Positions 9,421 through 63,931 of a stretch of 64,000 nucleotides of DNA are shown here, one piece after another; the stretch's first letter is position 1; each line of letters starts with the position of its first letter. Where the stretch lies: the NCBI RefSeq assembly GCF_964204645.1, contig NC_134026.1:24942650-25006649 (forward strand), written 5' to 3'. Both the position numbers and the translations under genes were made by a program. This stretch comes from Tubulanus polymorphus. Lineage: Eukaryota; Nemertea; Palaeonemertea; Tubulaniformes; Tubulanidae. Below the pieces are notes generated by a model. That model was not told the DNA's origin. It searched no databases and saw only the letters and a program-made list of their open reading frames with translations.

Positions 9421-9535
9421 GTAAGTGATATTAGTTGTCGTTTTCAACGATGTGCATGTAGTAGTATCGGGGGTATTGTTTTATTACGTAACCTCAATTC
9501 AAATCTATACGCCCTTGCAGGGTCGCTTGCTGAAA

Positions 9536-11256: not shown

Positions 11257-11505
11257 TGACAGCGTGGCTAGGCATTCCCTCGCGATCCTAGAGAGCGTAG
11301 AAGCACGAGTAGGATACTTCGTTATTTTCACTGACAAATATACTATAGTATGTAAATGATTCGCAGTACTGTTTGTTGATTATAATCGCGCTTGGTTGAT
11401 AAAGCGATACTCGCTGGCACTGTCAACAACGCTGTTTCACCATAGTTGACGACACTGGTAAACATATTGTGTTCATTCGCCAGAGGACTGCTACTGAAAC
11501 CAAAG

Positions 11506-21368: not shown

Positions 21369-21621
21369 GCTTTCTTGTCTTAATCGTAGTCATGTGGTCA
21401 TCAATGTTTAAATCATAACATAACAATAATCATAACAATAATCACGGTTTTGTTGCCATCGATGAATTGTGGTCCAGTATTTCGATCATGAAGCTTTAAG
21501 ATTTTAAAACCGGTTATTGCTACCATTCCATTTCTTATTTCTGATACATATATGTATATAATTTATGTAGTGGGATTATGTTGGACTAATTATCAGTAAA
21601 TATGTTCGAACAAGAATTTTA

Positions 21622-28572: not shown

Positions 28573-31500
28573 ATGTCCAAAAGAAAAACAAACCTTGAGG
28601 CCATGGCTAATTCATGTAATGATGAAGATTTGAGATCTGCTCTTGAAGCGGAGAAAAGCAAAGTTCGAGTTTTACAGCGTCAAAAAGTCGCGGAGGTAAA
28701 ACATGTAAAAGATGCCGAAAAACGAAAATACACAGTTGCCCTGGGCGATTTAAAAACCAAGTTGCATCAAGAAAAACTGAAAGAAGTTGAGCAAGTAAGA
28801 GAAATTGTCAGTAAGAAGTATGAAAATGAGATACAAGTAATTACTAAACAAAAAGATTCTGAGATCCTCAGACTGCAGGCTGATGTAAAGAAGATTCAGG
28901 GGGATTATGAGCTGGTGAGAAAAGATGGTGGAGAATCCCCGAAAAAGCGTGCTTATGAAGAGCAACGTTATCGGATGATTGAGGCAGAAAATGCGAAACT
29001 CTGTCATGATTTGTTAGATATGAAAAAATCGAAGAAAAAGTTAGACGATTCGTACCACGCTCTGTTGTGTGCCGATCGCGAAAAATTAATTGATCTACGC
29101 CGAACTGAAGAAGAACACAAACTAGAAGTGGCAAAATTGAAAAAAGAAGCTCACATCGAAACTCGTAAATTGGTAAGACAAATATTTTTGATGTTTTCAG
29201 ATGACTTCAAAGTTAGCTAATACTATACCCTCATCACCCATTTTGAGTCATTCCTCCACGGCAACGTTAAATTTTTTGGAAGATTTTAGAACTTAGGTTG
29301 TGTAGAACTGTAAAAATGCATCTTTGGTATCAATTACACGGATAGACAGTTCAGGTAAATTTAAATTCATTGAGAGATGTATCGCTTGGTAGGAGAGTGG
29401 TGTACGCACTGCAGGCAACAGCTTCCAACCCCCAGAATGTTTATCTGAATGCGATAAATTTAGCCTGGAAAGAGATTAGCGCTTCTGTTATACATGTAAT
29501 GTACAAGCATTGATCTAGTAGTGGTTGTGTGGTAGGTGTTCTGATTCAGTCTGTTTGAGTTGCATTAAAATTTGATCAACCAAACTGACTTATTTAGGCC
29601 TACCTATCCTGGAATATACTTTTAACTTTGGAAGAAGAGTGAAGGAAAACAGAAAAGTCTACGTTTGACTCTTTGACCTTTGAAAAATGACGAAGAATCA
29701 AGCAACAAATACCAGTACTCCCTAAAGATAAAGATGTAGCTGGCTGTGGGAATAAATCGAAACCTGTTCAATGTTCCATGATTAATTTTCTTCCTGATAA
29801 ACTTTCTGCTAAGTTCTATGAAACTTTGGTCCAAAAATAGCTCTTGATATCAGTGATTCTTTGCCATGGAACAACAGATAAGTTTTTCCTGCGTGAAGCT
29901 TGCTCATTCGAAAAGCATTCGCTGAACTGAACACCATCAACCTGTTCTCACAAGTTACTCGAAGTAGCGTAATACGATTCACAAGCACCTCCTGTTTTCT
30001 GTTAAGATGATCAAAAATGATCAGTGATTAATTTTCATTGTATTGATAGCTATCAGAAGGGAAAAAAGTATTGAATACAATATCATAATGTTATTTATTT
30101 ATATGAAATAAATCCACTTGACTGTGAAACTCCCCAGGGGTTAGCTTGAACCAGGATCCAGTTATATACAGAATGTTTCTGACAGCATAATCCAATAAAG
30201 TTCTAGGGTAAAAAGAAACATTGGCCATGCCACGTTGGCAAAACCACGCTCAACAAGAAAGCGTTGTTGTTATCTACCTGAGCTTGCTGTCTTGCTGTGT
30301 AGCTACCTTGAGTTCGCTTGCTGATTTAGTATGTTTTTAGAGAACATATGTACCGCAATCTAAGAAAAAGCATTGTGGATATAGGCAGTGGTAAATCCAA
30401 CAGGGAATACTAATGTTCCTATCTCAATATCATATGGATTAATATTCTTATAATCTAGTGATGGATTTTAAAAGATATTTATATCCCACCCAATGGAACA
30501 AGGTGATTTGATTAGTCAGCAATGGTGCTTTCTTCTTTGTTTTGCTTATTCAGAACTTTAAGAAAAAATATAAGGTTCTGTCAATTTCTTTGCAGCTGGA
30601 TGAGATTCAGGCTAGTAATAGGATCGTGATGAATCTGAAGAAAGAACTTGGTTACCAATCGGAAAATTACCATTCAGATGTCGTCAATAAGAACTATATA
30701 TCGAGCATTGATTTACATGCCCAATCAACACCCAAAAGTGCAGTAGTAAATTCAGAAAGTGATTCAGATAGTGCCATTGGAGTAAGTTATTTTCACCTTT
30801 CTAATACAGGAATTTATATACTGAGTAAACAATAGATAAAATGATGATGTAGATTTTGTGTTATGCATGGTTGATTCAACTCATTTTTTTTAAAGATGTC
30901 TCCAAGGCAAGATGGTGAGATTACAATGTACCAAACCCGAATTTCTGATCTCTGCTCCAAAAATAGATGGCTAGAAGATCGCAATGCCATCTTACAACAG
31001 GACAAAAATGAACTGGTAATTTAATGCGCATAATCTCTTCAAATATAGTAATAGGCATTCTTTGAAAATATATTTCTCTTTTCAGATACAGAGAAATAAA
31101 GAACTGGAAAAGCGTTACAATCCTGTCCAAGACAAAAATAAGAAATTCCTGAAAAAAAATATTGAACTCACACAATTGAATCGCACTTTAGAGGATAAAG
31201 TCAAGAAAGTAGTTGAGGATAATAAGAAACTGGTAAATGTTTTCTTTTATTCTGTGTAGAATTCAGTGTTATGAAGGTGCTATATAGTCAAATAGAAATT
31301 CGTAACTGAACCAGGTGAATTGAAATCAGGTCTGATCCTCGAGCTGAAACCGTTGAAAGATAAACAGGTTATGTATACGTAGCTTGGCAAATCTAAAGCA
31401 TCAACGCATTATAAACTCAATTAATAAGAAATCATCAGGTGTTTGTCGGTTTCTACATCGATGTTAAAAGGTTAATTGGACTGTATGTGTGGTATTTACA

Positions 31501-34500
31501 TGAGCACGTCTAGGCTTAGATTAGTGAAATGTTGCTACATCATTAGCACTGATACAGTTCCCCTGGGCTCCAAGAAAATAACTTTAATATGTATAATCTA
31601 TACATGAATTGCTAATGATAAATAAGAAAATTTTCAGCATAACTGATATAGTTTCACTAACTGACATTCGGGTTTTGGCTCATGAGTCACAACTGATAAA
31701 GTAGTTTAGAACTTAATGAGCTGCTCAACTGGCTGTTAGTGGGGTAGTGTAAATCCGGATCGTTTTTTGTAGGATTTGTTGAGTTAAACACAGATGATCC
31801 AAATGAGTCACTTTGTTGCATTTCAGAAAAACCAGATGGACGAGAATCTCGGTAGAACAGAATCTCTGAGTCAAGAGCTGAAAAAAGAGCAAGATAAAAA
31901 CGTTGACTACGTCGAGTTGCGCGAAAAATACCGAACTGTGAAGAAAAATATGAAACAGCTCCGAGAAAATCAAGAATCTCTCGAACAAGAATGTAGCGTA
32001 AGTGCTTCCAGATTGAGATATCGCTAAGAAAATATCGCTTGGTGCTTTTAATCTTAGGCGGTATTCTCTCCATAACTCCTGGTGATTATCTCTCCTCACT
32101 CACTGCGTGCACTTATTCTACCAATTCTACCATCGCCCTACTGCAATAGATGTTGAAAGTACTGCACCCTTGTGATTTATATCTGAATTGAAGGTGTCTG
32201 CATCTGCTTCTAAACGTCTAGAATAAGGGAGTAGTGTAACAAAGGGTTTACTATAAACACTATAAAATTTAGATGTATATACGTGAGGATACTTTAAGGA
32301 AGTCAATCCTGCTCTTTGGAAACACGATTTATAATACATATATTTATTTTTGGGGGGCATAAATGCATGGATTCTTTGGAATAAAGATTAGTCAATGATA
32401 TAAATCATGAATAGAAGATTATATTTGAAAGTGATTTTTGATGTACAAAAGTTTTTCTGTATCTGTATTCATACATATTGTAAGTAAGAATCGATTTGAG
32501 AAGGCAAAGAGCACTCTTTGTAACCATAGAAAAAATCCATGAGCTTGAATGAATATTTCCAATTTAGCAATATTCAATATGTATGTATGGATTTTTCATC
32601 AAATATTCATTGCAGGGGATAGAGAATTATGTGTTACTAATGATTTTATTAAATGGGAGCAATGTATGAAAGATTAAAGGCATTTTTGCTGATGAATACA
32701 ATTCATCGTGAATATTTTGATTTGCCTTTTGATGACTAATGTATATTTGGTGTTCTCTACAGGAAAGGGAGAGACGAATTGATTTGCTACGTGACAGACT
32801 TCACAGATTATCTGCTCATAAACACTCGTCACAACTCCATTTGAAGGTTTGTATGAAATTGATCATAGGCAATATTCAGTTGAACTTTCAATGGGCGATG
32901 TACGTAATGTGTAACATTTTTGCTTCTAGCACCAACCGGACGAAAAGTCTCTAGATTCAGAAGTTGCTAATATTTTGGCTGCGGATATAGAACCACACTC
33001 GTTAACAGTAAATGATACAGGTTGGGATGATGTAAGTAGATGTAGTGAAGTATAATGATAATGTTAGACTTTTATGTTCTGCAAATCCTTGTGTACATGA
33101 TTTCAGTTGTCTCAAGAGGAATTTGAAAGAAACTATAGACGACTCATGAAAGAACACCATTCTTTAGAAAAAGCAAATACTGTCCTCAGATTAAAGTATC
33201 AGAACTATATAGCAAATTCATGTAAAAACAAGGTATGTCTGATCACCATATATCAAATGTACATTCCAATGAATGAAATTAATTAACTTTGTTTTCGTTA
33301 TTTTGAAGCAATATTTGGAATCTCAATTGAAAGCTGCTCATAACAAAATCGAAAATTTGGAGGACAAGTTTGCTCACAACAAAGAGGAGGTGAGCTTACT
33401 GTTTTCATTATCGTGTTATGATGGCAATATTTATTTTCTGCAATCTAAAACTGTTTTTCTTTTGCCATCTTCAATTTATGGACATGTTTACGTAGTGAGT
33501 ACGATGTTGTAGTGCCTACATCTATTGATGTTGTGGCTGGTGTTGTTGATGTTCTGGTACTAGTTTTATTTATTGTGCATGTATCATGTCCATGGGTTTC
33601 TAAAAGATATTCTTTGTTTTTTCTTATATCTCAAGGTTCCACAGCCATCTAGGAAACGCCGACTTCCCGTAAGCGACAAGCATTTCAACTTATCTATCCA
33701 AACCAAAAATTTGTTTAAACAATTTAATCAAACTTTTCCATTTCTGTTCAAGGAGATAAATTGGATTGCTGAGAAACAGAAATTAAACGCTTCTAACAAA
33801 TCACTACTTGAAAAGGTGAGGGTTGAATGTAATATAATTTTCATTTCTGAGGTATTTCAATTGTGCTGAAATTTTGATTTTGACGACTGTTGTGCAGCAA
33901 GGCTGTTACCTATTACGCCTATGATAACAGATTCGTAGTTCAATGGCTGTGGTCGGACACAGATGTTGTTGGTGGAATTCTAACACAGTCGTTTATGACT
34001 TAGATCAACTCGGATGAATTAAGATGAACATAGTGCATTAGCAATTCTGTCTACCTGCATGACCTGATCTGTTGGAACGTCCAAATGCTCAGCTAGCAAT
34101 AGCATTGTTTTTTATCACTGGATTACAATATTTCACCCATGGATAAAGATAGTAATAAAGAGGTATCAGTTGTAATCTATATCATATATTTTAGTCAAGA
34201 TGTGGCATACATATATGAATGTATTAATCCAAAATCCAAATAGCAGCAAATGGTCCACTCGGTTTAAAACCATTAAAGGAATTATTATTTTTCGAGTCTA
34301 GTGGTTCCAATTTAAATCTTATTACTCCACACATTTTGCTTCAGGTGCGTAAATTAGAAGAAACGTCTCACAGACTTCAAGATGAATTGAAAGATTCAGC
34401 TGAACAAAATGAAAACCTTGAGTTCCGCGTATTAGAATTGGAAGAGCAGGTAATCTAACATCTTGATATATTTCTAAAAGAGTTAATGAGAAAAAAAGTA

Positions 34501-37500
34501 AAAAACGTTTTATACGAAAGAATTGAAGAATTGCACATCTTTGTCATTGTTTTCTGACATCTGTGAGGTTCACTGTTTGATCATATTGTTCTTGGCTAAA
34601 CAAGCAGAGAGCCTTTTATCAAACAGAAACCTAATATGTCGCTCTCAGTGTGTAAGGTTAACATCTGCTTAAGTAATTATTATGTTACATTTGAATTTGA
34701 TAGACTTAGGCTATACTGCATAGACTGACCATTCCACCAGAAAACGTTACACAGTGATGATTGTAATATTGTCTTTTTGCCCTGGCTGTTGTGATTGAAT
34801 TTTACTGTTTTCTGAAAGAACGAAGGGATTCATCATTTCTTGCGTGACGTCTTAGTACATCAAAATGATTTAATGTACATACATCTGTCATGGCAATTGT
34901 TTGCAGTGTGACTTTAGCTAAGATGGTTTATATAGCGATATGTTTGAATCTTATTGATGGATAGACTATCAGTTTATGCGAATGATAAGCGTAAGAGAAA
35001 CAGCTGAACAGTCGCTTTTGTATTAATAAGATATTCATTTCGATATTTTTGGATTATCATAAGTTGGAGAATATGGGACAGGTAATATATTCACTGTTCT
35101 TCTTCCATATCCCTTACAGACAGATGAAGAATGACTAATTCTAAGATATAAATCCCAGGTATCATGCACTGAATGTATATCAAAGATACCGGCTTTAAAA
35201 AATCAATCTGAAATTGTCAATCACTACGCTGATATAAGCGTGCAGCACCATGTATTTAGAATAAGTTACAATTATCAGATGAATGAATCTTGGTTTTGAA
35301 ATTCGAGAAATCTCAAATCTCATTATTGATTCTGTGTATTGTTATATTTATACAGATCTCACTGTGTCTTCATATCAAAGGATTGTCAAATAAAGTGTTG
35401 CATGTACCACTATTGCTCGTGCTTAAAGTTACCAATTATTTACTCAAAAACGTGAATGACCATAGTATTTGCACACGCACAAAGAAAAAAGAGTTCATCA
35501 TGTGAAAAATATATGAAATACATCATATTCACCATCATTGTTAAGAAAAAATGTCTTGAAATTTGTATGGATATGATTTTCATTGAAATTCTTCCTTATT
35601 TCAGCGCCAAGCTAAGTCCAGTGGTGCAAATCCTAATGAGGAGGATGATACTGAAATAACTTTTGATGAAATCCACAGTACAGTATGTATACTTTCATCT
35701 ATATAGGGGGTCATCCTGTGGTCAATTTATCTCATCATATTTCAGTAGATATAGAGAATGAATCATCATCAAACAAATTCATCTGCAATTCTGAGTACTG
35801 CGATAGATTTATTCGATCACGTTTTGCTGAATCAATTTACGTTCATGGAGTTCAAGAAGAGGTTTGAGTAAAAATCAATTTCTTATGACATTTATTTCAG
35901 GCCTTGAATATCGATGACTTGAAAAATAAGATTGAAGAATTAAAAACTAAATATGTAAGTATGCTAAACTTAAACTCCAATAAAACTGGAATCTTATCTG
36001 AAGCAATTAAGTTGAAGGACGGTGTCCACTATATAGTAATGTATTCTCATTAGATTACTTTTACTAGTGAATATGAGCCACCTGGTTAGCAAGACCAATG
36101 TGTAGATTGAAATTTAATCAATTCATTGAGTGCTGCAATTATTTCTGAAACAATGCACGACTGAACTGCATGTAATTCAATTGTAGGGTTATTTAGTCTC
36201 GCCGCAATAGGCATTGTACCCTAGTCCTGCGGTACACAGGGGGCACGCGTGTCTGTGCAGTTACACACACAATGACCTGACGAGAGCCTAACTATATCAA
36301 ATCAGTCGAGCATCTAATAACAACATTTTTAGTAGTAAACCAGTTATGTACTAATGAGACTGGTGGCAGGCGCACATGTGTTTATCAGTGATTCTGCGGT
36401 TAACAATTGTCTATAAGGAGTAAATGCCTATCAGAGCAACATGTTGGATATAAATTTGTAATATCTGGGAATATATTATTGGTGTAATGGCTCAAAATTC
36501 ACCCTCATTGCAGGTACATTTGTATTCCTTTTTTGAATGTATTGACTTTTATGTGTTTCATTCTGTTCCTTTGTGCAGTTGCCAGTGCTGCGTTCAAAAG
36601 CATAGTTCTATGTGCAGTTCATAACACATGTTTATGGTTTGAAACTGAATCTTTTTAAGAAACATTTCATGATAGATCTTTACAACCAATCACCAATTTG
36701 ACTTTCAGAATTCGAAACTTATTTATCCTTGTAAAGATATTCATAAGAGACACATAGTGGAATCAGCCCTTATATGTAAACTTTCGAAATCCAATTTATC
36801 TACTAATTTAGATACTGGTTTTTCTCCCCATAACCAATTATTATCCAGACACATCAACTCTTTATTAGATTTGGGTTGATGTCACTATGTGTCACTCTGT
36901 TATCGCCACCCTCTTCAGTCCACTTCACTTAGTTACATAATTTGTTTTTACTCTGAACTGTTTAGAATTGCTGTGGTTTCCATGGTACCCCTTGATGTTA
37001 TATTGCTTGGTCTGTTTATCTTAAGTTTTGACACACTGCTTTTATTTTAGATCCTGTGAGTTTATATGCTTTGTAACTTGTTTTTCTGGTCATTCCACCT
37101 GATGATGGCTGTTAGTCAACAGCCGAAACGTTGTGGTTTCGTAATAATAAATTTGATAGTATAATTTCAAATTCGAAGTGTGGGATTTCTTCATTCATTT
37201 ACATTTCATGAAGTTGATTTGATCAGTATTGGGATTAAGCAATTTTTGCAAAACCAGAATTATTTAGGGCAACGCTGTATGTAAAATGAATTGAAAACAC
37301 TAGTAAATTACTTTGACCTGAAGAATTTTTATGACAGTTTAAGATGATTGTTTGTTGACAGTGAGTGCATTGAGTCCTGGGGCCCATTTGATTTACTTGT
37401 GGGAATGTTCTATATTTTTAATCGGTGAGATCTGAAAAAGAAAATGGCATGTTCTGAGGTAGTTGGTGGCATTGAATCTTAAATTTGAGAACCTCTGATA

Positions 37501-40500
37501 TATCTTATGTTGAATTTAGTTATATTATTTACATACCAAACCTTACATACATATAATGCAGTGGCCACTGTCGTCTCTTAACTGTCCACGACATGATAGT
37601 ATGTTTTAGAATACTTCTATGTAGTGCCCTATGTGAGTAAACATTTAGATCCCTACCTAAATACTTGGTAGATTTACTGTTTGTGATTATTCCTATCATG
37701 TTAATCATTCATTAGTTGTCATATTTGTTAATTTACTATTTGTTTATATTTTTGAGGCTGCCCATCTTGGACGATCCGAGAAGACAGTCCTGCTGCAAGC
37801 TAAAGCTATGCTTGATATTGCTGACAAGGTATTGCCTAAAGAGCATCATCTTATTCTTGAAATGCCCTTAATCGATTTAGTGTAGTTAAAAAAGAATTTC
37901 ATTTCTTCAACTTTCAGCGAAATAAATCTCAAGAAACAATAGAAAAAGCATTACGAGAAAGAATCAGCTTATTAGAGACAGAAAAGGCTGAATTATTGTC
38001 AGAACAGGGTATATCCAGCGATCTCGTACTAGAATTTGAGGAGGCAAGAAACAAACTAATTGACACAGAACTGGTATGGCATTATAGAGCATTATACAAA
38101 TTGTTTGCTTTTTTTATGATTGGTCTATTCACTATCGATTACTATTAAATATTCTTGATATACAATTCGAGAACTATAGCCAGTGATTGATGTTCAATTG
38201 AGATTTCTATCATCAGTTTTCATGTTAGTGAAGTCTGAGTAAATCTACACCTGTTCACAAATATACATGTTCCACACTCGATTGGCAAACAAAATCGATA
38301 ACGCAATTATTGATAAAATGCCTTCATCATGTATAGGTTGAATTTACGACTATACATTAGCTGCAGTTTTAACAATGGCGCCTGGTTTTAATCGCGCATA
38401 AAGAAATTAATCATGAAGTGAACTCTGCATAGATCATTAGTAAATCGATGCTGATTCTGGTTCCACAGTTACCCATACGTCCAGTCTCATTCATATTAGT
38501 GACAGATATGCTCCATATATACCATATGCCATATATGCTCCAGATATGACCCATGAATAGATAATGTAAAATGTATTGAGAATCCTATTAAAAAAGAAAC
38601 CAGAAGAATATATCAATTATTATGCTATGCTTGTATAGTTACATTATCTTTCCTGTATTGCATGGGAAAAATTTATGCAAATTGATTCATTTCGATGATT
38701 GATATTGTTGGATCATTGTGTTCAGATAGATTATCAAATCTTGATCAGTAAAAGCATATGAAGAATTTTTTAAAGAATTTTCGGGTGAGTGGTGCTTGTG
38801 AATCTTCAATCATCGTAAAAATGCTGCCAGCTGTCACCTTGATCTCTTGAGCTTAAAAAGAGACCAACCTTACAGTGTCTGAATGTATCATAGCTGTCAC
38901 TATAAGCGACACGTGAAGTGCTGGTACCCGAGACATCTTCTACTGTAGATTCTTATCTATGAAGACCTTTTACTATTTTTGTGTAGAAACTCGACGAGCT
39001 TGTGTCTGAAAATAAAGAACTACGAGAATCTGAAGCAGCTTTGAAATACAAGGAAAATATATACAACAAACGTGAAGACAAATTCAAGCAGGAGAATGCT
39101 GAATTGAAAAAACAATTGGCAGCATCAATGGAGGGTCGAGGCTCAGAAACGGCTTTCATCCAACAGCGGATGGATAAATTGCGGTTCCTACAGCAGGTAG
39201 GTGATATGTATTTTGCCCAGTCCAATTTGATGATACTAATTCTAACAAAGAGAACTATTGTATGTATATGATGTTTATCTCATCATAAACCTATCATAAA
39301 CCTGTGTGGTTTGAAACACATGCTCGTTCATCCACTGGTTACGTAAATAAAGCATAGAGAAGGTTGTATACCGGTAGATTTTATTCTGATCCTAATATCT
39401 TAATATCTTTTTACGAATGATTCAAAAGTCATATCTTCGTTCTAGCAATTGTCGCTGCTGGAGAATAGCAACACAGACTTGACTAATCGGCTGATGTCAC
39501 TACAAGAAGAAAATAGTAATCTTCTCGAACAGATATCCAACCAGGATACATCATCGCTGGACAAACTGGGAGAAAATGAACAGAAATTAGCTGGCACGAT
39601 CAGTGTTTTGAAGGTAACTTGATTACGGGTAGAATAGTACACATGATTGGCATACATGTTGCCAGTATTATACACATGTTCTTTACATTCAAACTTCCAT
39701 AGATCCTATATACGGTAGATAGATATATATCGTGCTTATGTTGAGTACTGTATTTTCAAAAAGGTTTCTTTCACGGTGTTTCAGGAACAACTTCAGAAAG
39801 CAAAAGAAAATGAGAAGAGTCTTTCTGCTCAGAATTCCCAGTCAATGAAAGAGATGGAGTTACTCCGGAATAAGAATGCTGAACTTGAGGATATAAATAA
39901 AGAAATATCGTCGAATTTCCATTTGCTCAAAGACAAGCTCGTTTCAACGAAGGATGATGTAGATGTGATGAAGAAGAAGTTGAAAGAGTCGGCATCAGGC
40001 TCTCCTGGAGGCGCAGACGAACTCCAGAGAAAAGTTCGGAAACTAGAACAGGATAATCTTGATCTGTTGAAAGAACTTATCGTTGTACGACAGGAACAGA
40101 ATGAAACAGAAAGTGCAGCATCATCTCAACCTCAAGCATCATCTGATTTAGAGAAGGATAATATGCAATTACGCACTGATAATTTCAAATTGAAGGAAGA
40201 ACTTTCTGCTAAAGAAAAAGAAATGAAAGAAACCCACGGTATCACTGAACAGAAGAACAAGGAAAATCTGGCTCTGAGGAAAAAGTAAGTTTTGTAGCTT
40301 GATTACTTCATTCGAATTTTTATATCTAATCAAATATTTGGGATTTTTATCAGAAATTCATTAAATCTGTTATAACCTGATGTTTTTGCAGTATGTGGGA
40401 GACAATGGAATGGTAAATTGAATTATTTTAGTTTGCAGTATTAGAATGCTTAACACAATGTGCATGCAATTTGATGAGAATTGAAGGGAAAGAAATTGAA

Positions 40501-41140
40501 ATAATTTTCTCTTTAGTTGCTTGTGTGGTGTGATGTATATGATGTTTTCATTTATAGCTGGTGTAAGACTGAATAGATTGCAGTGATTCAATTACAGTTA
40601 TATGTGTATCTATTTTGAGTTTGGAAAATATTGTAGTAGTCTTTTCCTGGTCATCATTTAGGCTATTCTTTACTACCGGGTATTGTCATTTGCTTAAGAT
40701 TTTCATGCGTATACCATAGATCTTTTGAATTTGGATTGTTGTTGTTTGGTTTTCATTCTGAAATAATGAGTTCTGCCTGGAATTAGCCATTTTCATGCTG
40801 TGCAAGTGTTCATTAACATATTAAATCTTTTTATGATTATTATTGTCATTCATCTTTCCTTTCTGGTTAACAGGTTTGCAGAATATGAACAGCTGAAGAA
40901 AGATCTACCGATGATGAAGACCGAGCACAACGCGCGTTTGTATGAGATAAAGATGGTGAAAGAAGAGAATTTCCATTTGAAGAAGAAACTTGAAGAGTTA
41001 GAAAAGAAGTTGAAAGATGGAAGGAGCAAACCTGATGGCAAAACTGTAATGGCTGATGAAGATGTTAAAGCAGCCTTGTTGACACCGTTCAAAGCAGCTT
41101 TGGCTCCAATAAATGTTTCCATACCTGAAGTCGAGGAAGA
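28573..41140 (+). CDS. Giant gene part 1: JAKMIP-like N-terminal coiled coil
   Basis: Coding exons: 28,573-29,172; 30,596-30,781; 30,896-31,015; 31,086-31,232; 31,827-31,997; 32,763-32,846; 32,930-33,031; 33,107-33,232; 33,309-33,389; 33,636-33,668; 33,753-33,815; 34,345-34,449; 35,605-35,682; 35,901-35,954; 37,757-37,828; 37,918-38,073; 38,987-39,196; 39,446-39,613; 39,785-40,284; 40,874-41,140. All junctions are phase 0 except the last two donors (phase 2). The first 600 residues are collinear with JAKMIP (Janus kinase and microtubule-interacting protein) N-termini: DLKTKLHQEK (59-68), WLEDRNAILQQDKNEL (287-302), ERERRIDLLRDRL, then an acidic gap and a second coil. JAKMIPs bind microtubules and GABA-B receptor/JAK partners. 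The region is nearly all heptad coil. Reading past the last donor gives a TAA at 41,142-41,144, so this could also be a terminal exon of a separate gene. Confidence 0.8.
36690..37165 (+). mobile_element. 5'-truncated Penelope-like retroelement, in an intron
   Basis: 36,715-36,879 is an open frame ending in TGA. Its end (KRHIVESALICKLSK, then GFSPHNQLLSRHI) matches the tail of the GIY-YIG endonuclease in Penelope-like elements. Downstream, at about 37,100-37,135, is CTGATGATGGCTGTTAGTCA followed by ACAGCCGAAACGTTG. GGCTGTT pairs with AACAGCC around a 4-nt loop, a motif characteristic of Penelope-like 3' regions. The reverse transcriptase is missing. The copy lies in the sense orientation within the 35,955-37,756 intron. 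Confidence 0.7.
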
Positions 41141-44100: not shown

Positions 44101-44196
44101 CTTATCATTCTACAAGAATATATTTCAAGATAGGATTTATGTAGCCTTATATTTCTCTGATTAATTTAATGAATATCACATTTTCTTTAATTGAAG
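41141..44196 (+). other. 3-kb intron, or intergenic gap between two genes
   Basis: No coding exon, RNA or recognisable mobile element. A poly(A) signal AATAAA occurs at 41,838-41,843, about 700 nt after the in-frame TAA at 41,142. It would end a JAKMIP-like transcript if the locus is two genes. No clear TATA box precedes 44,198, and the sequence before it (TTTTCTTTAATTGAAG) is a good acceptor, favouring one gene. Confidence 0.5.
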
Positions 44197-53086
<8,890 letters not shown>

Positions 53087-54482
53087 GTAAGTATTTCATA
53101 TGAACATTGTTGAAGTAAATGTTCATTCTTTTATTCGACATAATCGATACATCATGTATATGAACAGTTGCATTGTAAATCTATCCCAGTTCTCATTTTA
53201 CGAGAATTCAAATTGGTTTCGTCATTAGATGGGTGGTTTTCATTTCATATTAGTTAAACAGTAGCAGTGGTTTGAATTGAGTGTAAACTGATGGACGCTT
53301 TTTTGAATTGTCTCGGATTATGAATGGATCAAGTTGTAGAATTAGTGCGCTCCAATAAGCTCAAATTGTTGGCTTTACGGAACCGATTAAGAAGCTCAAA
53401 GTCGGAGAGCGTTAGTAGTTTTCTGATGGAATTATTTGATATATTTTATGTTTCTTCTCTCAGTTATTTCTAATATAATCACGTATAGTTATGTATAGTG
53501 TTGTGCAGATTTGAGAACACTTGAAAATTATTGATAGGTCTAGAGTTATTTTGAGTATAATATTACTCATGGCTGTGGAACCTTGGTTAAGGATTTTTAT
53601 GGATTAATGAATATATCATCTATGTATAATTTGGTATATGATTTTGAAAACCCATTTTTTATCAAATTGCTTTGAAATGTATGTCAGAAATACAAATTTT
53701 CCAGATATTAATGATGCACCTGTTGCAGATATCGATTGGATAAATATGTATACTGTTGTATATTTACAGCGAAATACTGGGCGGTGCCTTCGTTAGGAGC
53801 TACCGAGCAGCTGTCATTAAATTGTTTATAGAACCATACGAAAATGCATATGTTTCATAATATTTAATATCAAGCCTTTGGTTGGAAATGTTGCAAATTT
53901 GTAACCTTCAATAATCAAAATAATTGTAACAAAAGATTTTTGCAAGATGTGACAAAAATGTGTCATTTAATGTCAATGCGTAATATAAATATTAATTCAT
54001 CAGTTCTTGATCCACCTTTTCCCTGTCTGGCTTTTAAAGTGTGTGGAGTGTGTATGCTAGGTTTGATAGAATTTGTAAAGATAGTAGGTAATCAAAACAG
54101 TTTTTGCTGTTTCTAATTTACTATCAGACATATAAGAGTTATGCAAATCATATATATATATATAAAAACAGATGAATGAAGAAAGCAGGGAGATATAAAA
54201 TATGAGTGGGATTGAGTTTCGTGTGGATATTTATCAGGTAGTTATTTATGGTTAAATTATCATGCCTTCCAATGTATAATATTTATTTGAATTATTCACT
54301 ATTATGCTAATCAAGTAACAGTTTGTAGAATAATAGAACAAGAGAGAAGCTAGGTAATGATACACTATGTTAATCATTTTCGGTTTTCTACAAGTGTACT
54401 GGACAGTTCGATTTGGTGTTTGTACACTGTGCGATTTGTTTAAAGATGTCCCTGCTTTTCGAGGTCTGGTCAATCAGTACAG

Positions 54483-55433
54483 CAGGAATCCGCAAATAAT
54501 GATGAATTGACATTGGATAATCGAGTAGTCGAGTTTACTGACACGAGTAACAAAATGTTGAATTTGGAGAATGTCAGAGATGGTGTATTCACTTTGAAAG
54601 CTTTATGCGAAGCTGTTTTACTGCGTGAAGGAATTCGATATCCTGAATATGGAGATATTTTTGACTTGCAGTTGAACACCGGCGGTTGCAGTCCTGGAAT
54701 TGCAATTAATGATACAGATAGCACCTCTCAGGACGTTTTGTTGAAAGCTGTTGATTCAGAAGTTTGCCATTCAGGCATTGATAATGTAGCATTTGTTGAT
54801 GATGAGAATTCTTACCATTATGAAGAGGTGTATGGTGAAGTCAATCAAATAGATACTGATTCTACAATTTGTGAGCCAGTTGATGAAATAAAGATGTCGT
54901 CAATTAGTTTAAATGAGAATATGTTACAATATTTCACACAACAAACAAGTGGCATTAATGAAATTTATGATAATTACTCAATGCGCCATTGTTACTCAGA
55001 TCCAGGGGATTATTGCAGTTTTGGAAATGCTGTGGTGACTGAAACCGAACTTGATGTTGATATGGAAGAAAGATCTAACTGTAATGAGAACTTGTCCAGT
55101 AATTCCTTAGAGAGATTTTCTTCGACATCCATACTTCATGAACATGAGAAGTTTGGTGATATTATCGAAGCCATGAACAGTCATTTGGTATCGTACGGTT
55201 CTGAAACAGTTGATTCAGTGGTACTGGATGATGTAGACTCTGTTTACTCTGAACCAAGCTCTCTTCTACTTGAGAGCCCATTGTTTTCATTGCCTTTGAA
55301 GAAGATAGTGAGGAATGAATCAGAAACTGCTGCGGATTTAAGCCACCCTGAAGCTCAAATTGCCGAAGCAAATAGTATTTCTGACAATAGTGATAACCAA
55401 ACAGATGTAGATTTGAAAGAACGTGGGTTTCAG
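54483..55433 (+). CDS. Giant gene part 3: acidic, non-coiled cassette exon
   Basis: A long open exon, starting at an acceptor (CAGTACAG|CAGGAATCC) in phase 0 to match the preceding donor at 53,086. It encodes about 317 residues rich in Asp, Glu, Ser and Asn, without heptads and with no domain I recognise. Two phase-0 donors are possible: GGGTTTCAG|GTGAAG (ends 55,433) and CATCATCTG|GTTAGT (ends 55,634). Both are in frame with the next exon. Because the flanking exons are also phase 0, skipping this exon would keep the frame, so an alternative cassette is plausible. Predicted disordered. Confidence 0.6.
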
Positions 55434-55715
55434 GTGAAGTCTTTGGATAATAATGCCAGTTTGTTTCGAGAGAAAGATGGAAGTATCAAAGTTGAATGTG
55501 GTCACATAAATGGAGAGATTCGAGAATCTTATGTAGCTCAATGGAACAGTCCCAAGAAGAATTTTTTTGTTATTGATATTCATGTCCCATCTATACGTGT
55601 ACCGTGCATTTATTACCTAACTCTTCATCATCTGGTTAGTAGTGGAATGTTATTTTGGTGAATAGGGATATGAAAAAACCATAATAAAAACATTTTATCC
55701 ATTCATCAAGATACC

Positions 55716-55733
55716 GGGGGGGGGGGGGGGGGG
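55716..55733 (+). repeat. G homopolymer, 18 nt
   Basis: Uninterrupted run of 18 G in the intron after the acidic exon; could form a G-quadruplex. Length prone to sequencing error. Confidence 0.9.
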
Positions 55734-56024
55734 TTAGACGTCTGCTGCTATTTTACGGTTGTGTGAAAATATATAAGCCTTGCATACATTACTGCTCACA
55801 CATGGGTTATATATCGATAATATGAAAAAGTGTAGCAGGTGTGAAAATTATTGATGAGATTATAGGTCAGCTGTTTCCACGATGACTAAATATGGGTGGA
55901 TTTCTGTAAGCGTGCGTTTTAAGCACATTCTAGTATCTACGGGTTTTTATATGGATTTCGTGCGTGTATTTGTAACTTAGTATTATTGAGAATAGAAACG
56001 ATATTTCAATCTGTTTGTTAATAG

Positions 56025-59000
56025 GATGGTGATGTGATCATAGCCCAGGTGTCACAAAAGAAGGCTTTGGCTGAAAAGGGAAGTCAAACCACAAAGTCAC
56101 TAGATTCAGTAGATGAGCCAAAAACCGAAGATTCCATTCCTCTCAGAGATCAACTCCAACCCGTTCAAGTTCAACCTCAAAATGCAGGTAATTATTGAAA
56201 GAGCTTGTCTAGTGAAATGTCATTTGAACATACTGTATGATTTCAAATTGATGAATATTCGAATATTTTCTCTTTAAGTTTCTAAGCCAGTTCCAAATTC
56301 ACCAGAACATGTCAAAGCGCTTGATGATTTAGCCAATGCACTATCATTTGGTGATCTAGAAAACGAACATAGACCATCTCCCACGCATGATTCACCAGAA
56401 GTCATCGAGCCAGAAATATCTTCACAGAATAAACCTAAGGTTGAGTCAGCTCCTAATCTAGATAATTTAGCAGAACATTTACCACCACAGAAATCAAATA
56501 CCAAAACCAAACCCGATGCTGGAAGAAAAATGCGTTCTGGTAGGTCACCAAGGCCAAGGCAGTATGGTGGAGAAGATTCCGATAGTTCTGTAGATGAAGT
56601 ACCTGTCGCTGGGGTGAGATTCTCTACATGTTTTAAACGATTTTTATGAATTCTCTGTATTGTTGTCTGATGCCAGGTGGTGCCTGTAATTTATGATGAA
56701 TGATATGTATTTCATAGGGAACTGTTCGACGCTCGTCTGCTATGTTTGATGTGGACCCTCGTCAACAAGACATACCGGTACTCAATAAACAACCAGATTC
56801 TGAAATGATACAGCCAACTCATCGTCAACCAGCGCAAATGGTATGATACATTTACTTACTCATTTTGTAATTGAATATACATGGCAGTCTTGCATATGCA
56901 CTTACATTGTATATTAATTAATGATAACCATGATTTCCAACTAATATATGGAAATACACAGCCCTGCTAGTATGAAAAATCTATTGCACATACTGATAAA
57001 TCTATGAATTAGGAAGACATCTTGGTGACAAGTTTTGATAAATTCTGGGTCTGAAAATATTCAGATCTTTTTACTCATACTGAAGGTGCTGTGTTTCAAG
57101 GTACATGGTTAGGTGCGTGGGAAATTTGTGTGACTTTTCTGGGAGTTGGACATCGAAAAATTATCTATAACTTCTTCCAGAAACCACTTTCTCAGCGGCC
57201 AATAGATAACGCTAGTCCCAACGAGCGCATAAGATTAATTGACAATCTTGTTAATGCTTTACCGAATCAGGATTCAAGACATGGCCGGAGTAGCTCACCG
57301 AAATCACATCGTACCTATCCGACATCACAAGCAGAACCTTACCATCGTCATCAACCTGCAGAACGAGAAAATGAAGAGGACCACTGGCGTACAATCGAAA
57401 ACCAGCCCTCACCTAGTCATCAAAAACCACGTCCAGAAGATCGTTTTTGGAAGCAGGTAACATTTTTGAACTCAATTTCTCATTCATTTTTGAATCAGGT
57501 AATTACTAACAGTACTAACTGTCTTAGATGGTTAATTATTAGTTTTGCTTATTCTAACACATGCCAAGCTGATCTCTTACAAACTAACTGAAATTCTAGG
57601 TTGAATCTAAACCCAATCAGTCAAAATCTGGGAAACCATTGTTCGAGGATTTAACAGTTTCAATGACCATTAGTGACGATGAGACAAGCGATGTGGAGGG
57701 TCATCATGGGACAGTACCTCCTCCAAGGATATTCAGTGATAAGCATCCGAATGTTCATAATTCCTATTATCCGCAGAGAGATAATGATGAAATACCGAGC
57801 CTCATCGATTTCAGTCACAGCCGATCACCAGCTCCACAAAGACGAATACCTCGAACTCGTTCTAATGAAAGTGTAGCTGATAGCGGAGTCAGCACTATGC
57901 CAATAGGCGATCCGGAGTATAGTTACATCAACTTTCCAAATTCACGTCTTGAATCAAAACCAACATCGCGTCAATCAAATCAGCCTCATGAAGCAGTATT
58001 GAGACCAGCCAGTGCTAACCGTGCCTACGGTCAACCGACACAATTCACTCCTAGAAATGCTGCTGAGGTACAGGAACAACCACAGTTATCAGAATGGCTA
58101 ACTCATCAGCTGGTCGACAATAAGAGTATGGCGTCGAATACTGAGAGGTTCCAACATCGAGGGCAACAGCCCGCATGGCCCGTCGGACCAATGAGGAATG
58201 TATCGACTGATACTGAAGATTTGAATAAACAGCTACGCGATGAAATTCAAAAATTGCAGCAGAAAATAGCTGATTTAGAATGTGAAAATAGAGTGAGTGC
58301 TTATAGGCATTGCCCAAGTGGATTTTTGTTCAATGATTACACTTATTTCACTCTTCCATGATTAAGATAACATTCTAACAACTAATACACCTTAACTTAT
58401 TCTGCTACTTAGTTATTGAAAATCCTTTGTTTGATTTGAAGAAAATCTTAACATTTGATTTCAGATAAAACAACGTGAACTAGAGACATATCAATTTGTT
58501 AATAAAGGAATGGAAGATAAAATGAAGGATGCTGAAGACACATTTACTTGGAAAGCTAAGGTAATTGTTAGATCTAGAAATAACAATTACGAAATAGGGA
58601 AACTAACATTTCATGACGTTTGTAAGCTTTTAACCGCATGACCTTAGTACATAAGTGACAACTACTAATATTTAGTTAATCTACAGAAAATACATCAGTA
58701 GAAAAAATTAGTGAATAGATGAATATCTTATTTACTCTCCCACTACTTAGGATAGTTCCAAGAAAATGTCTGATAATTGGACTTGGACAAAGACGTCCAA
58801 CCCTCAAGTTCCTGAAGAAAAATTTTCATCCCTCGCCATTCTATACTAGTCTGTATATACTTTATTTGTAAATAGAAGGTGAGAGGTGTACATATTGATA
58901 TATTGTATTGTGTTGTTTTCACGTGTGACCTCTGACCCCCTCTCACCTCAGTATATAATGTAATCACTCTGAACAAGTCGAATTGAGGGTTTGCAGATTT

Positions 59001-61269
59001 TTTGGCTGAGTTCCTTAAATTAGTTGCATGAAAAATTTGCGTTATGTGTGGCAGCTTTTTCATTTCTATGTTTTGCAATCAATTTGATAAACTTGTAAAT
59101 AGCCTGGTTGTTGATAAAATTATTATTCTGAAGGTTTTTACATTCTGTTTTTAGTTAAAGGATAAAGAACGTGATCTACAAGCATTAGAGAGAGTTAATC
59201 GGGATTTAACTGAGGAGGTAACTGCAATTTCTATCAATTCTATCAATCTTATTTATCCTACCTATCTAACTAAAAAAATGAAACTCACAACAGCTAACAG
59301 TGAACTAAAATCAATTTCAGAATTTTTTGTTTTGACATAATTCTGGTCATTGCATTCAGTTAACATTGTCGATGTGTATAACTTTGTTAGTGTTGTAGTC
59401 TTCTAACCAATTGCACTGCTATTAATTTGCATAGAACACTAAATTAGAAGAAGAGCTTTATAACAAACAAAGACAGGTTTCTGAACTTCAAGGAGAAGTC
59501 AACAATTTAGATAAAGTTATTAATTCTAAGGTATGCCTCTGATGATATCAAATGTAGTATATCATAAGTTATTGTTGATTTAGATAAATTATGCTATCGC
59601 AAATGAATTGATTTTCTCATTTTGAAATCAGATTATGCAAATTCTCCGATTAAATCTGTAGGAGGCAGCTGGTAGTGAAGCTATAATCGATGAGCTTAAG
59701 AAAGACCTTTTACATACTCAAAATGTCCTCGAGCAAGCAACTAATCATAACTTAGATTTAGAGAAACAACTACGTCAACTTAAAATTAGTAATGATCGTA
59801 AAGATAAAGATGTCAACTTCAAGGTATTCATCATCAATGCCCTAAATTATTGCCTCTGATGAATTATTGTTTAGCCAAATAACATCTGAATGTCTTACTA
59901 ATTAATTAATCAATCACTAATCAATGCACCAAAAACCCGTGTACTTGTATTTTATCACGTATCTTTTGTATTTGTTTGTTTTCTCACTTGGTTATACATT
60001 GATTTTTCTTAGAATAATAAACTGGAGGAAGCGGAAAGAGAAATAAGTAGATGCAAGGATGCAGCACGTGAGTCCGAAAAACAACGCATGGAAATGCAAG
60101 GGCAACTACGATCTGCAGAACAGGATCTTCTGAAACTGAATGAAGCTGACAAAAAGTTACAAGCACTTAGGGAAGAATATGAAAAACTTCTGATGAAGGT
60201 AGATTGATCTCTTAAGAATATAAGATTCCAGATTTACCTCATGCCTGTTACTCACATGCACAATTAACAAATCTTTCAGAATGCTGATCTTCAGGAACAA
60301 ATACGTCAACTTGAAATCATAAAACGTGAAAAGATCGATTTGGAACAGACTGTCGATGGCCTCAAGGGACAGTTGAAAAACTACAATCAGCTCAAAGCGG
60401 ATAAAGCTGGAGTTGATGTTAAACTTGATATGGTGCAGGAAGCACTAGAAAACAAGGTGAATTTCTTAAGCACAGCGCTCAACTATTTTTGTTAATTGTT
60501 TCAAAAGATTTATAGACATGAAAATTATGATTTGTATTTTAAACTGCTGCAAACCTGTTAGACAGTAGAGGCTGAACAAATAAATGCAGAAAAACAGAGC
60601 CTAACCAGTTATATCAAACGGTTAGAAGGCGAAGGAGCCTCGGATAAGGAAAATCTTAAAGATTATGATCAAATCAAGGCTAGGGCAAGTTGCTAAATAT
60701 GTATATCCTGGTGTAGGTTTTCTCGTCATGGAAATTAAGATCCGTTGCAAGGCTTGGTGTTCTGAAAGATCCATCGGCAATTTCTGAAGGAAATTTCTTT
60801 TACTGTAGAGGTTTTATCCTGCTGGTCTTATTGTAAACGCTGGTGTGGGGTGCCATAAACTGTAAATTCATGCTGTTTGTTTGTTTATCTATTCAAAATA
60901 GGACATTCATATACTTAAAAAGTAACAGAACTTTAATTCTTATCTATTTCAGTATAATGAAATGGAGAAAATAAAAGACCGAGCGGAGAGGGCTGTTGCC
61001 CCTCTCAGAGCGAAAGTCACAAGACTCGCTCATAAATGCAAACAAAAGGTAAAATAAGTTATTCCATGTGAATGAGAGCCTATGAAATGCCTAAGATTAA
61101 TATGATTATCTTCATGTCACAGGATGATATGATAAAAAGGCTGGCAGATGAGATGCAGAAGAATGGTTCTCTGTCACAACCATTAAAAGCAGATGTGGAC
61201 CAAATACGGGATGATATGGCATTGGAAGAATATAACAGGCCACTATCACCAATAGGAGGCAGTGTCCAA
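56025..61269 (+). CDS. Giant gene part 4: disordered linker plus coiled coil before the SH3
   Basis: Exons: 56,025-56,187; 56,279-56,613; 56,718-56,840; 57,181-57,456; 57,600-58,292; 58,465-58,560; 59,155-59,217; 59,435-59,530; 59,662-59,823; 60,013-60,198; 60,280-60,456; 60,562-60,684; 60,953-61,048; 61,123-61,269. The first five encode Ser/Pro/Arg/Gln-rich, probably unstructured sequence (GRSPRPRQYGGEDSDSS). From DLNKQLRDEIQKLQQK near 58,220 a coiled coil resumes and runs to 61,048. In RIMBP proteins an N-terminal coil likewise precedes the first SH3. The intron after 60,684 appears to use a GC donor (AGG|GCAAGT), because the nearby GT site would shift the frame into a stop. All other junctions are GT-AG. 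Only the 56,187/56,279 junction is phase 1; the rest are phase 0. Confidence 0.82.
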
Positions 61270-61347
61270 GTAAGAATCAATCGTCCATGGTCTCCAGCAT
61301 GTTCGAATTCATCAAATTGAATGTAACTTATCTCCTTTGTTTTACAG

Positions 61348-63931
61348 GATGATATGATTCCAGCATCTTCAGTGGCTCAACAGGAAAGCTCACCGAGAAC
61401 TTATTCAAATCCACCTATGTCATATGATAACTACAGCCAAAAAAGACCAAACGAAAATGAAATGCCTCACAAAAATGCGTTCAATAACCCACAAAATGGA
61501 GATATTGTTCCAACCAGGTTGGGACGACAGGAACATGCTCCACCGTCTCATTCAAACCTTGACTTGGATGAGACAATGAGCAGTTCATCGAGAATGCCAC
61601 AGTTGAATAACCAACGCTTTGACATGCAACAGCATAGTCCACACCCGGAGAACTATTTGTCGAAACATTCCCCAAGATCTCAACAACCAGACAAGCCCAG
61701 TATTTATCAAGCAATCACAGACTACGACCCAAAACATTTTTCTCGTAGTGGTCATCCAAATTTGGATCTACCGCTTAGAGAGGGAGATGTTGTTAAAGTT
61801 TTCGGTGAGTATTCTTCCTCCATGAATTAGATTATGTCAGATGTGGATATCGATATTTGAAGCCAAGAAGGTCACATTAGTCGGTATATACATGTAGTAA
61901 AATGTTTCGCTTATAGGACCCATGGACGATACAGGTTATTATGAGGGAGAAGTAAATGGTCGAACTGGTTTAGTACCAGCTGACTATTTACAACCCCTCC
62001 ATCAGGATGCAAATCCTAGAAGACAGAAGAAACCTAACCAACCGTCATATACTGATAGTCCTGAACAAGTCATGGACATGTATGATAATTTACAACGTTC
62101 TCATACACCAAACCACCAAGGTAAGAGATTAGTGGGTTAAAGCATTGTATAGAATATCAATACGTTGTAATTGTAAATGATTATTTTCTTACACGTACAG
62201 TGCCAGATCTCCAATCACAAGCTAGAAGCCCATTTCCACCGAACTTTGTGCCTCAACGGGGTAATGTACCAATCCCATCAACAGGCTGTACAGAGATCTT
62301 ACCGACCACTGTGATACGTGATCAATCTCAACAGCCCAGTCCAAACCTAGAGCATACACGCAAACAACGACCAAAATCTTCACCCGATATACGTCCAGTT
62401 AGAGATACGCCTAATATGAACCGTCCTACATCTCGTCAGTCAAACAGAGAAGGTTGGTTGAACTCACTTTTTGTTTCTTAACTGGCTCGTATATTATTGT
62501 TTAGAAGATTCTGCTCAACTCTTGATTGTGTACTAACAGGACCACCTGAACCACCAAGTGATTTCCGCATCTCGCGTATATTGAGCAATGAAACTGTAAT
62601 GGTCGAATGGTTACCACCTCGTTTAGATGATTTGGATAGGAGTAATGGTATCCAAATCACTGGATATAAGGTATGTTAATCTACATTTTTCTTTCTTTAT
62701 TCCGAATCTTTTATGGGACAGTTTGCTATGGATTTATTTCTATGCAGTATCTACTAAATAGTGATTATAGATTTTAGAGGATATGTGTAACTAATAATGA
62801 ATATAGCTCTCAATAGGATGTTCAGGACCAGTTGGTCTTTCCCATTGCAATGATATTATCAACCAAAACTAACACTTCTAAGCATTAACCCTAGTTAGGA
62901 GTAGACTACTGGTATATAGTCTCATAACATTTATTTTGTAATTTTATCCATCATTACTACCTTTAGATAACTGAGATTTTGCCTGATTCTAAGTGTTAAG
63001 GTATGGGTTTTTATGTAACCAATATAAATGTTGTATCACCATTTTACATTTCATTATTATGCACATTTGATATCTTATGATACTGCACCAACCAGTTTGT
63101 CCCTTTACGCCCTCATTCCAAGGGTTCAAATCATTGTTGTTTCATTATTCACTATCAGTATTCAATTAGATTTTCAATTTCAATGTAGTAAAATATTTTG
63201 CATGTATATGTCACTGATATGACGGGTATGACTTCAAATATAATCTACTTATTTCCAGATATATGTCGATGGAGATCTGAAACATGAAGTAAGCAGCCCT
63301 CATATTAGCAAGTCACTGGTTGGCAAACTGGATCTTAGTAAGCCGCATAAAATAAGTATTCAAAGTTATTCAACGTTGGGAGATAAATCTCGCGTTATTC
63401 ATACACGCTTCGATGATATTCTGCCGGAATTCCCCGGAGAAGGAATGTCGGATTTAGGCTCGCATCTCGGTGATGAAATGGAACGTGGATCGATGATGTC
63501 GAGTAGTTACTACGAAAATGGAGAGAAACGAATAGTGAGTTAATGAATTCATTCCCCTGAGATATTCAATTGCAGCTTTCATTAAACGGTGTATAATTTG
63601 TTTTGGATATGATTTTGTTCCAGTTCGCCGCTCTCTATGATTATAAACCCAGTGGTCAGTCTCCTAACCGTATATTATCAATGAAAGCTGGAGATCCGGT
63701 TGCAGTTTATGGACCGCTAAGATCTGATGGATTTTACCATGCCAAGGTGTGTAATATTTGCCTTATGTAATATTGTACTGATCATATCAAGTCCAAATTA
63801 ATGTAGACACATGTGAGAAAATGTTGTTATCTTATTTCCTTCAGGTTCATGGACGTAAAGGACTTGTGCCTGCAAGTTTCCTGGAAGAGTTACCCTTAAA
63901 ACATCGTAAACACAAGAAAAGCAGTAAGAGG
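61348..63931 (+). CDS. Giant gene part 5: RIMBP-like SH3 - FN3 - SH3, open at edge
   Basis: Exons: 61,348-61,804; 61,917-62,120; 62,201-62,452; 62,540-62,670; 63,259-63,534; 63,624-63,746; 63,845-63,931. The first SH3 spans the 61,804/61,917 intron: AITDYDPKHF, LPLREGDVVKVFG, then DDTGYYEGEVNGRTGLVPAD. A Pro/Arg-rich linker follows. An FN3 domain (EPPSDFRISRI, VEWLPPR, ITGYKIYVDGD) spans 62,540-63,400. A second SH3 (FAALYDYKPSG, DPVAVYGPLRSDGFYHAKV, KGLVPASFLEE) fills the last two exons, followed by a basic KHRKHKKSSKR tail. The SH3 'VFG|' phase-1 intron and FN3 sequence are typical of RIM-binding proteins (RIMBP/TSPOAP1), which couple presynaptic Ca2+ channels to RIM at active zones. RIMBPs usually have three FN3 domains between SH3-I and SH3-II; here one is seen. 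The reading frame continues beyond the window. Confidence 0.9.

Follow-up and report, generated by a model that had tools for sequence, protein, structure and literature searches.

A probable giant gene of the nemertean Tubulanus polymorphus with a JAKMIP-type N-terminus and a RIMBP-type tail, and a probable common origin of the two families

Introduction

How does a coiled coil of the JAKMIP type come to share a reading frame with the SH3-FN3-SH3 tail of a RIM-binding protein (RIMBP)? The question is raised by a 64,000-nucleotide (nt) stretch of the Tubulanus polymorphus genome (the window; contig NC_134026.1, here C2, C2:24942650-25006649), where exons of both kinds can be chained on the + strand into one gene, the window gene. 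An earlier note on this DNA, made from the letters alone, proposed a fusion of two families. The observation itself is confirmed and the interpretation is partly supported: the two ends belong to the families named, but they do not appear to come from unrelated families, as the N-terminus of the genome's separate RIMBP is homologous to that of the window gene. We consider it probable, judging from sequence comparison, that one giant gene is both this genome's JAKMIP-family gene and a RIMBP paralogue, and that JAKMIP and RIMBP arose from one ancestral gene. The argument is built on the homology of both ends, the copy number of marker domains and the gene order. The genome searched comprised 267.8 Mb in 77 contigs; among the contigs whose size was seen, C1, C2, C4, C5, C6, C9 and C12 measured 11.5–32 Mb, and C13 and later were below 0.25 Mb.

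Identity of the two ends

A profile search, which the earlier note had proposed as a check on the JAKMIP-type N-terminus, bears out that identity. The JAKMIP_CC3 domain (PF16034) matches amino acids (aa) 486-572 of the window gene (62.6 bits, cut-off 30.2, E value 5.1e-17; partial, profile 112-196 of 200), and this is the one place in the whole genome over the cut-off; a second place, on C3, lies below it and contains a stop. A reconstructed human JAKMIP1 sequence, supported by its full-length JAKMIP_CC3 match (304.5 bits), is collinear over residues 11-815 with residues 5-779 of the uncorrected gene model described below (first 1,069 residues searched). The resemblance, which the earlier note had described for the JAKMIP N-terminal half, spans nearly the full length of JAKMIP1. 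Its local score against these 1,069 residues was 690, compared with at most 195 in 100 heptad-keeping shuffles, and phmmer with filters off returned 130.1 bits. Decoys also exceeded their own shuffles (central coil 244, shuffle maximum 213; reversed sequence 204, maximum 194), so part of the score excess stems from coil order alone, with 690 lying far above. The reconstructed JAKMIP1 scores 304 with the RIMBP coil, and LDEI...KELG, LEDRN and LEFRVLELEE are common to it and the window gene. JAKMIPs end after the third coil, with a hydrophobic C-terminus. The window protein does not stop there as a JAKMIP would; its frame runs on through coil exons to at least 41140.

The RIMBP-type 3′ part likewise passes profile searches, with two stretches of SH3_2 (79.5 bits, E value 1.4e-22) and one Ig_RIMBP2 domain (PF25523; 68.5 bits, cut-off 27, E value 5.8e-19) in Pfam. 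In PDB, the tail is matched best by KIAA1666, known as RIMBP3, by 'RIM-binding protein, isoform F' and by RIM binding protein 2. The FN3 domain is nearest to RIMBP FN3-III (29–30 % identity); with reconstructed FN3-I and -II, identity is 19–23 %. Both SH3 domains share 38–48 % identity with SH3-III of the genome's RIMBP and of a reconstructed human RIMBP. The tail thus holds two SH3 domains and one FN3 domain, followed by the stop at 64605. Ahead of it, DUF4527 (PF15030) matches in part (43.1 bits, cut-off 29, E value 4.5e-11; profile 26-129 of 277).

That this tail could be the genome's RIMBP was ruled out by a separate, canonical RIMBP (RIMB1_N, E value 5.3e-31; Ig_RIMBP2, E value 9.1e-36; three SH3 stretches), which maps to about C2:26.712-26.734 Mb, at a distance of 1.7 Mb. 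The RIMBP active-zone scaffold proper is this other gene on C2, and the window gene is a paralogue of it with one FN3 and two SH3 domains. All four Ig_RIMBP2 places in the genome fall in one or the other of these genes; JAKMIP_CC3, present in the window gene, was not found in the RIMBP model.

Homology of the JAKMIP-type and RIMBP N-termini

Searching the whole genome with residues 1-219 of the window gene (E value ≤1) returned three places in two genes. Two are exons of the query gene, and the third is the N-terminus of RIMBP (E value 6.4e-7, residues 19-205; 14 candidates scored). In the reverse search, apart from the self-match of RIMBP, the one other place lay in the window gene (E value 7.8e-9; 34 candidates scored). 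In block N1, window aa 20-103 align with RIMBP 19-102 without a gap (33 % identity, E value 1e-9); the score of 147 was reached by none of 2000 heptad-keeping shuffles (maximum 87) and none of 72 decoy coil windows (maximum 78). Block N2 scored 117, again above all 2000 shuffles (maximum 107) and all 70 decoys (maximum 90). A second set of decoys was drawn from windows of the RIMBP coil; as it overlaps the matching stretch, it cannot serve as a control.

Profile comparison points the same way. Using hhalign, a two-row JAKMIP profile and a two-row RIMBP profile (reconstructed human sequences among the rows) aligned with 96.4 % probability (E value 1.4e-9) over N1 only, and decoys consisting of two single-sequence coils reached 0.3 % and 1.4 %. 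For isolated N2, the best Pfam match was RIMB1_N (PF25566; E value 2.1e-5, profile 3-126 of 129), which at 24.8 bits falls short of the cut-off (28.5); the genome's true RIMBP reaches 107.6 bits. Exon boundaries of the N-terminal part were compared by eye (n=5, lengths checked), and two of the five coincide with RIMBP in position and phase, 17 residues past the start of RTLEDK/RRLDDK and 26 past the start of RISDL/KISDL, the latter shifted by one residue in the gapped N2 alignment. As most introns are phase 0, agreement in phase alone is weak.

A probable common origin of the RIMBP and JAKMIP-type N-termini is the best-supported new claim of this analysis. Given that the genome's RIMBP carries a homologous N-terminus, 'fusion' is probably the wrong word for the window gene.

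Exon chain and gene model

The frame-consistent chain of the earlier note was recovered independently by a script that chains exons from a fixed start (ATG 28573) with a codon table trained on the window gene itself; its extent was not. The chain runs from that ATG, which has an in-frame stop two codons 5′ of it, through the JAKMIP-type coil to the RIMBP-type tail, and comprises 51 exons and 4,296 aa, not 54 exons and about 4,480 codons. Fifty exons lie within the window; the last (64473-64607) is in downstream DNA. A gene still open at the window edge, as had been described, is ruled out by the stop at 64605-64607, about 0.6 kb beyond it. The start of exon 2 was corrected to 30596; the uncorrected model has 4,273 aa. 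Introns are mostly phase 0 (40/50), with a median of 217 nt; the longest (41140/44197) measures 3,056 nt and the second longest 1,802 nt.

The region scored 1,072.5 with 51 exons, as against at most 10.5 in 20 dinucleotide-keeping shuffles (one exon each) and 2.3 on the reverse strand. Scores elsewhere reached at most 14.9 in the 28.5 kb upstream and at most 30.1 in the 29 kb downstream, but flanking DNA is the poorer chance control because the codon table is fitted to coil, so much so that a 470-aa open frame at 9425-10837 was also missed. By a simple heptad score, about 2,650 of the 4,296 residues are coil-like; in the central 1,532 residues, the coil-like fraction is 0.94, versus 0.27 in one shuffle of the same residues. 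The features of the gene, all on the + strand, are as follows.

28573-29172 (+): coding exon 1 with the start ATG; carries JAKMIP N-terminal block N1, which has its homologue at the N-terminus of the genome's RIMBP
30596-30781 (+): second coding exon, its start moved to the acceptor TTTGCAG|CTGGATGAG; LDEIQ...KELG aligns with JAKMIP1
30896-31997 (+): exons 3–5 (30896-31015, 31086-31232, 31827-31997), second JAKMIP block, RIMB1_N-like (N2); introns 3|4 and 4|5 at RIMBP intron positions
32763-33031 (+): exons 6–7, last part of the first coil plus acidic gap (exon chain)
33309-34449 (+): exons 8–10 (33309-33389, 33753-33815, 34345-34449), JAKMIP_CC3 domain, sole genome place over cut-off
35605-39613 (+): exons 11–16, remainder of the JAKMIP-collinear region (exon chain, JAKMIP1 alignment)
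39785-41140 (+): exons 17–18, coil past the JAKMIP end; exon 18 ends in phase 2 at GA|GTAAGT, with an in-frame TAA at 41142-41144
41141-44196 (+): putative 3,056-nt intron, the disputed junction (exon chain)
44197-53086 (+): exons 19–29, central coil of about 1,500 residues, including a 2,811-nt exon (44457-47267); ATG 44199 is a possible separate start
54486-58292 (+): exons 30–35, mainly non-coil linker, its second part proline/serine-rich (exon chain, heptad score)
58465-61269 (+): exons 36–43, second coil region, with the DUF4527 (PF15030) match toward its end (about 60280-61269)
61348-62120 (+): exons 44–45, first RIMBP-type SH3 (Pfam and PDB matches)
62294-62452 (+): exon 46, SH3-FN3 linker (exon chain)
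62540-63534 (+): exons 47–48, FN3/Ig_RIMBP2 domain, closest to RIMBP FN3-III
63624-63931 (+): exons 49–50, second RIMBP-type SH3 and basic tail; exon 51 (64473-64607, stop 64605-64607) lies beyond the window

The coil exon at 44457-47267 is far longer than its neighbours, perhaps through intron loss or a retrocopy.

Neighbouring genes

Downstream of the window gene on C2 lie MAEA (− strand; PDB match, E value 1.5e-94) and CtBP (+ strand; PDB match, E value 8.9e-81). Human CTBP1 and MAEA are neighbours on 4p16.3, human CTBP2 and JAKMIP3 are both on 10q26, and DUF4527 is the C4orf50 family. A genome search with DUF4527 (E value ≤1) found one place, in the window gene, which as a lone exon scores 19.8 bits and so falls below the cut-off; it lies about 26 kb from the JAKMIP_CC3 place. 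If these human positions hold, the MAEA and CtBP neighbours and the DUF4527 coil place the JAKMIP locus here through conserved gene order, with C4orf50 as its possible detached tail. Human coordinates of JAKMIP1 and C4orf50 were not found in the literature searched.

At C2:26.685-26.735 Mb, exons assigned by eye to VPS53 and PGAM5 stand upstream of the canonical RIMBP; human PGAM5 and RIMBP2 are both on 12q24.33, so that the linkage may be ancient.

One gene or two, and of what origin

Several observations weigh against a single gene of common JAKMIP/RIMBP origin. Applied to 60 kb around RIMBP, the exon-chaining script merged several neighbouring genes (VPS53, PGAM5 and a kinase exon, as assigned by eye) into one 53-exon in-frame chain, partly via tiny exons. 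The idea that a splice-phase match alone proves one gene is thereby ruled out, and frame consistency cannot decide between one gene and two; that a single transcript crosses 41140/44197 is a prediction from genomic DNA. The intron at that junction far exceeds all others in length; its phase-2 donor 41140|GTAAGT overlaps an in-frame TAA, and ATG 44199 stands directly after the acceptor in a fair context (GAAGGATGA, purine at -3), a possible start of a second gene. Human JAKMIP1 and C4orf50 are separate genes side by side on 4p16. A CRMP/DPYSL gene presumably lies beside each vertebrate (human) JAKMIP; a genome search for amidohydrolases (the CRMP/DPYSL superfamily) found nine places, none of them near the window and the one on C2 at 5.99 Mb. 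With default filters, phmmer returned no match of the reconstructed JAKMIP1 to the whole 4,273-aa model. As regards RIMBP, three of the five exon boundaries are unshared or only near (one off by one residue, 14 vs 13 before RISDL/KISDL; one more with exons of 57 vs 70 residues; and one at window aa 200 that is absent in RIMBP). The C-terminal coil scores 67 with that of RIMBP, a value not above chance (attained in 69 of the 2000 shuffles and by 20 of the 72 decoys), and a genome search with this coil gave nine places, none in RIMBP. Finally, both N1 and N2 are of coiled-coil type, and reconstructed rather than deposited sequences enter several of the comparisons.

Some of these points favour two adjacent genes, the first a JAKMIP (about 1,055 aa) that stops at TAA 41142-41144, the second a RIMBP-like gene from ATG 44199, homologous to vertebrate C4orf50 and matching it in order and strand. 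This arrangement, which is compatible with a common JAKMIP/RIMBP origin, we regard as rather unlikely. It would draw on the length of the intron, the stop and the ATG at its two edges, the human gene pair, the merging habit of the script and one AATAAA in the junction, at 41838. However, any phase-2 GTAAG donor brings such a stop with it, and AATAAA is rarer in the junction than in other long introns (0.33 vs 0.75 per kb). Nor does the observed/expected CpG ratio recover before 44199, where six 500-bp windows (-3000 to 0) range from 0.44 to 0.80 with no rise; the junction mean of 0.59 (6 windows) equals that of the gene's introns (0.58, 24 windows), as compared with 1.09 in the 5′ flank (11 windows). 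Upstream of 28573, the ratio rises to 1.53 but is 0.37 in the last 500 bp, and it stands at 1.55, 1.61 and 1.15 at the starts of CtBP, MAEA and VPS53 (for the last, the -500..0 window only, the others having wrapped round the sequence end or begun inside the gene). CpG supports one gene without being decisive, because the RIMBP start hardly rises (0.94) and the downstream flank (64.65-73.6 kb) is equally low (0.58, 17 windows). Both ends are also united in the RIMBP model, from the same script that merges genes, and in a Ciona Rimbp isoform whose single transcript carries SH3 and FN3 along with a long N-terminus (PMC7565545). On balance, we think it quite likely that the window holds a single gene, which one transcript would span. 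Over the region as a whole, CpG drops abruptly from about 1.1 (1-28500) to about 0.6 where the gene begins, and remains at a low level as far as about 76 kb (28500-76000, extended coordinates), as expected for mosaic invertebrate gene-body methylation.

Two further explanations concern the origin of such a gene. A true late, lineage-specific fusion of two unrelated families, JAKMIP and RIMBP-like, would account for the match of each end to its own family by profile, but the homology of the JAKMIP-type N-terminus with that of the genome's RIMBP, together with two common intron positions, suggests that such ends were already together in a RIMBP-type gene; we hold this explanation to be very improbable. 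The same applies to a lineage-specific RIMBP duplicate with an enlarged coil whose resemblance to JAKMIP reflects coiled-coil ancestry or composition only. RIMBP is indeed the only other gene in the genome that the N-terminus matches, and is on the same chromosome; against a mere duplicate stand the presence of JAKMIP_CC3 in the window gene and not in the RIMBP model, the far higher score of the reconstructed JAKMIP1 with the window gene than with the RIMBP coil and the three motifs that the window gene has in common with JAKMIP1. Both these explanations we rate well below that of two adjacent genes.

Under the explanation that we prefer, one giant gene of common JAKMIP/RIMBP origin, both families would go back to one ancestor that combined a coil at the N-terminus with an SH3/FN3 tail. 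The RIMBP branch holds three SH3 and several FN3 domains, and the window-gene branch an SH3-FN3-SH3 tail and a coil of about 2,600 coil-like residues. Vertebrate JAKMIPs would have lost the tail or split it off, with C4orf50 as a candidate remnant; we put forward the vertebrate split into JAKMIP1 and C4orf50 as a hypothesis. The window protein may be a long rod-like tether, the JAKMIP-type end of which would hold microtubules or kinesin-1, as reported for Jakmip1, while the SH3 end, like that of RIMBP, would bind proline-rich partners, keeping a cargo or membrane scaffold at some distance from the track. To the fuller scenario, in which one animal gene family branched into JAKMIP and RIMBP, the window gene keeps the ancestral layout of the JAKMIP branch (coil plus SH3-FN3-SH3 tail), and vertebrates cut it into JAKMIP1 and C4orf50, making the 'vertebrate-specific' JAKMIPs remnants of an active-zone-type scaffold, we would give even chances.

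Other features of the window

Upstream of the window gene, five similar open frames stand in a row (14242-19181, − strand), of which both that were scanned (2/5) match VWA, suggesting tandem duplication. A reverse transcriptase fragment at 5450-6251 (+ strand; RVT_1, E value 4e-16, at 5450-5809) belongs to a long interspersed nuclear element (LINE)-type element that is probably degenerate; the frame at 5835-6251 (+ strand) had no Pfam match. The 470-aa frame at 9425-10837 (+ strand) is intronless, with hydrophobic segments and an APD1-4_M domain (E value 1e-8), a domain named after E3 ligases. Further frames are thioredoxin-like (11446-11856, + strand), F-box (20322-21389, − strand) and globin (25972-26340, − strand).

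Rfam and tRNA scans of the window gave no match, nor did an Rfam scan over nine loci; a let-7 candidate (51.1 bits, E value 1.3e-7) fell just under the gathering score of 53.5 and fits a bilaterian animal. Nine small contigs were inspected for a mitochondrial one, and none was seen. NCBIfam returned generic coil matches only on the five exons scanned. One search of a genome-contig collection with the C-terminal part and one of viral contigs with the N-terminal part found no relative.

Comparison with known systems

The JAKMIP family is called vertebrate-specific and Jakmip1 is reported to associate with microtubules and kinesin-1 (both PMC3765260), and an NECC1/NECC2 homologue is reported in Nematostella (PMC5840792). 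RIMBPs bind RIM and Ca channels via their SH3 domains (in part PMC7565545). A JAKMIP-RIMBP relation or homology was not reported in the accessible portions of the open-access literature searched. If the common origin is true, JAKMIPs, microtubule and kinesin partners called vertebrate-specific, arose inside the RIM-binding-protein family. Such an origin would connect microtubule transport with SH3-based presynaptic scaffolds in a way open to testing, propose an identity for the uncharacterised C4orf50 and offer a concrete case of one long gene in one animal explaining two adjacent genes in another.

The window gene resembles JAKMIP1/Marlin-1, JAKMIP2/NECC1 and JAKMIP3/NECC2 in a coil collinear over nearly their full length and in JAKMIP_CC3; it differs from the vertebrate JAKMIPs, which end after about 810–840 aa, whereas its coil continues to SH3-FN3-SH3. 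With C4orf50, compared here through the family profile, it shares the DUF4527 coil match ahead of the SH3 part, and C4orf50 presumably neighbours JAKMIP1 on human 4p16. With the RIMBPs (Rbp, RIMBP1/TSPOAP1, RIMBP2 and RIMBP3), it has in common RIMBP-type SH3 domains, an FN3-III-type domain and a homologous N-terminal coil. It differs from them in its far longer coil and JAKMIP_CC3, and in having two SH3 domains and one FN3 domain, where RIMBPs have three SH3 and two to three FN3 domains (PMC7565545). By analogy, giant golgins and other long coiled-coil tethers may be likened to the predicted protein in being very long rods with a binding module at the end; Pfam scans, covering part of the exons, returned no golgin family at cut-off, and what the window gene carries instead are JAKMIP and RIMBP domains.

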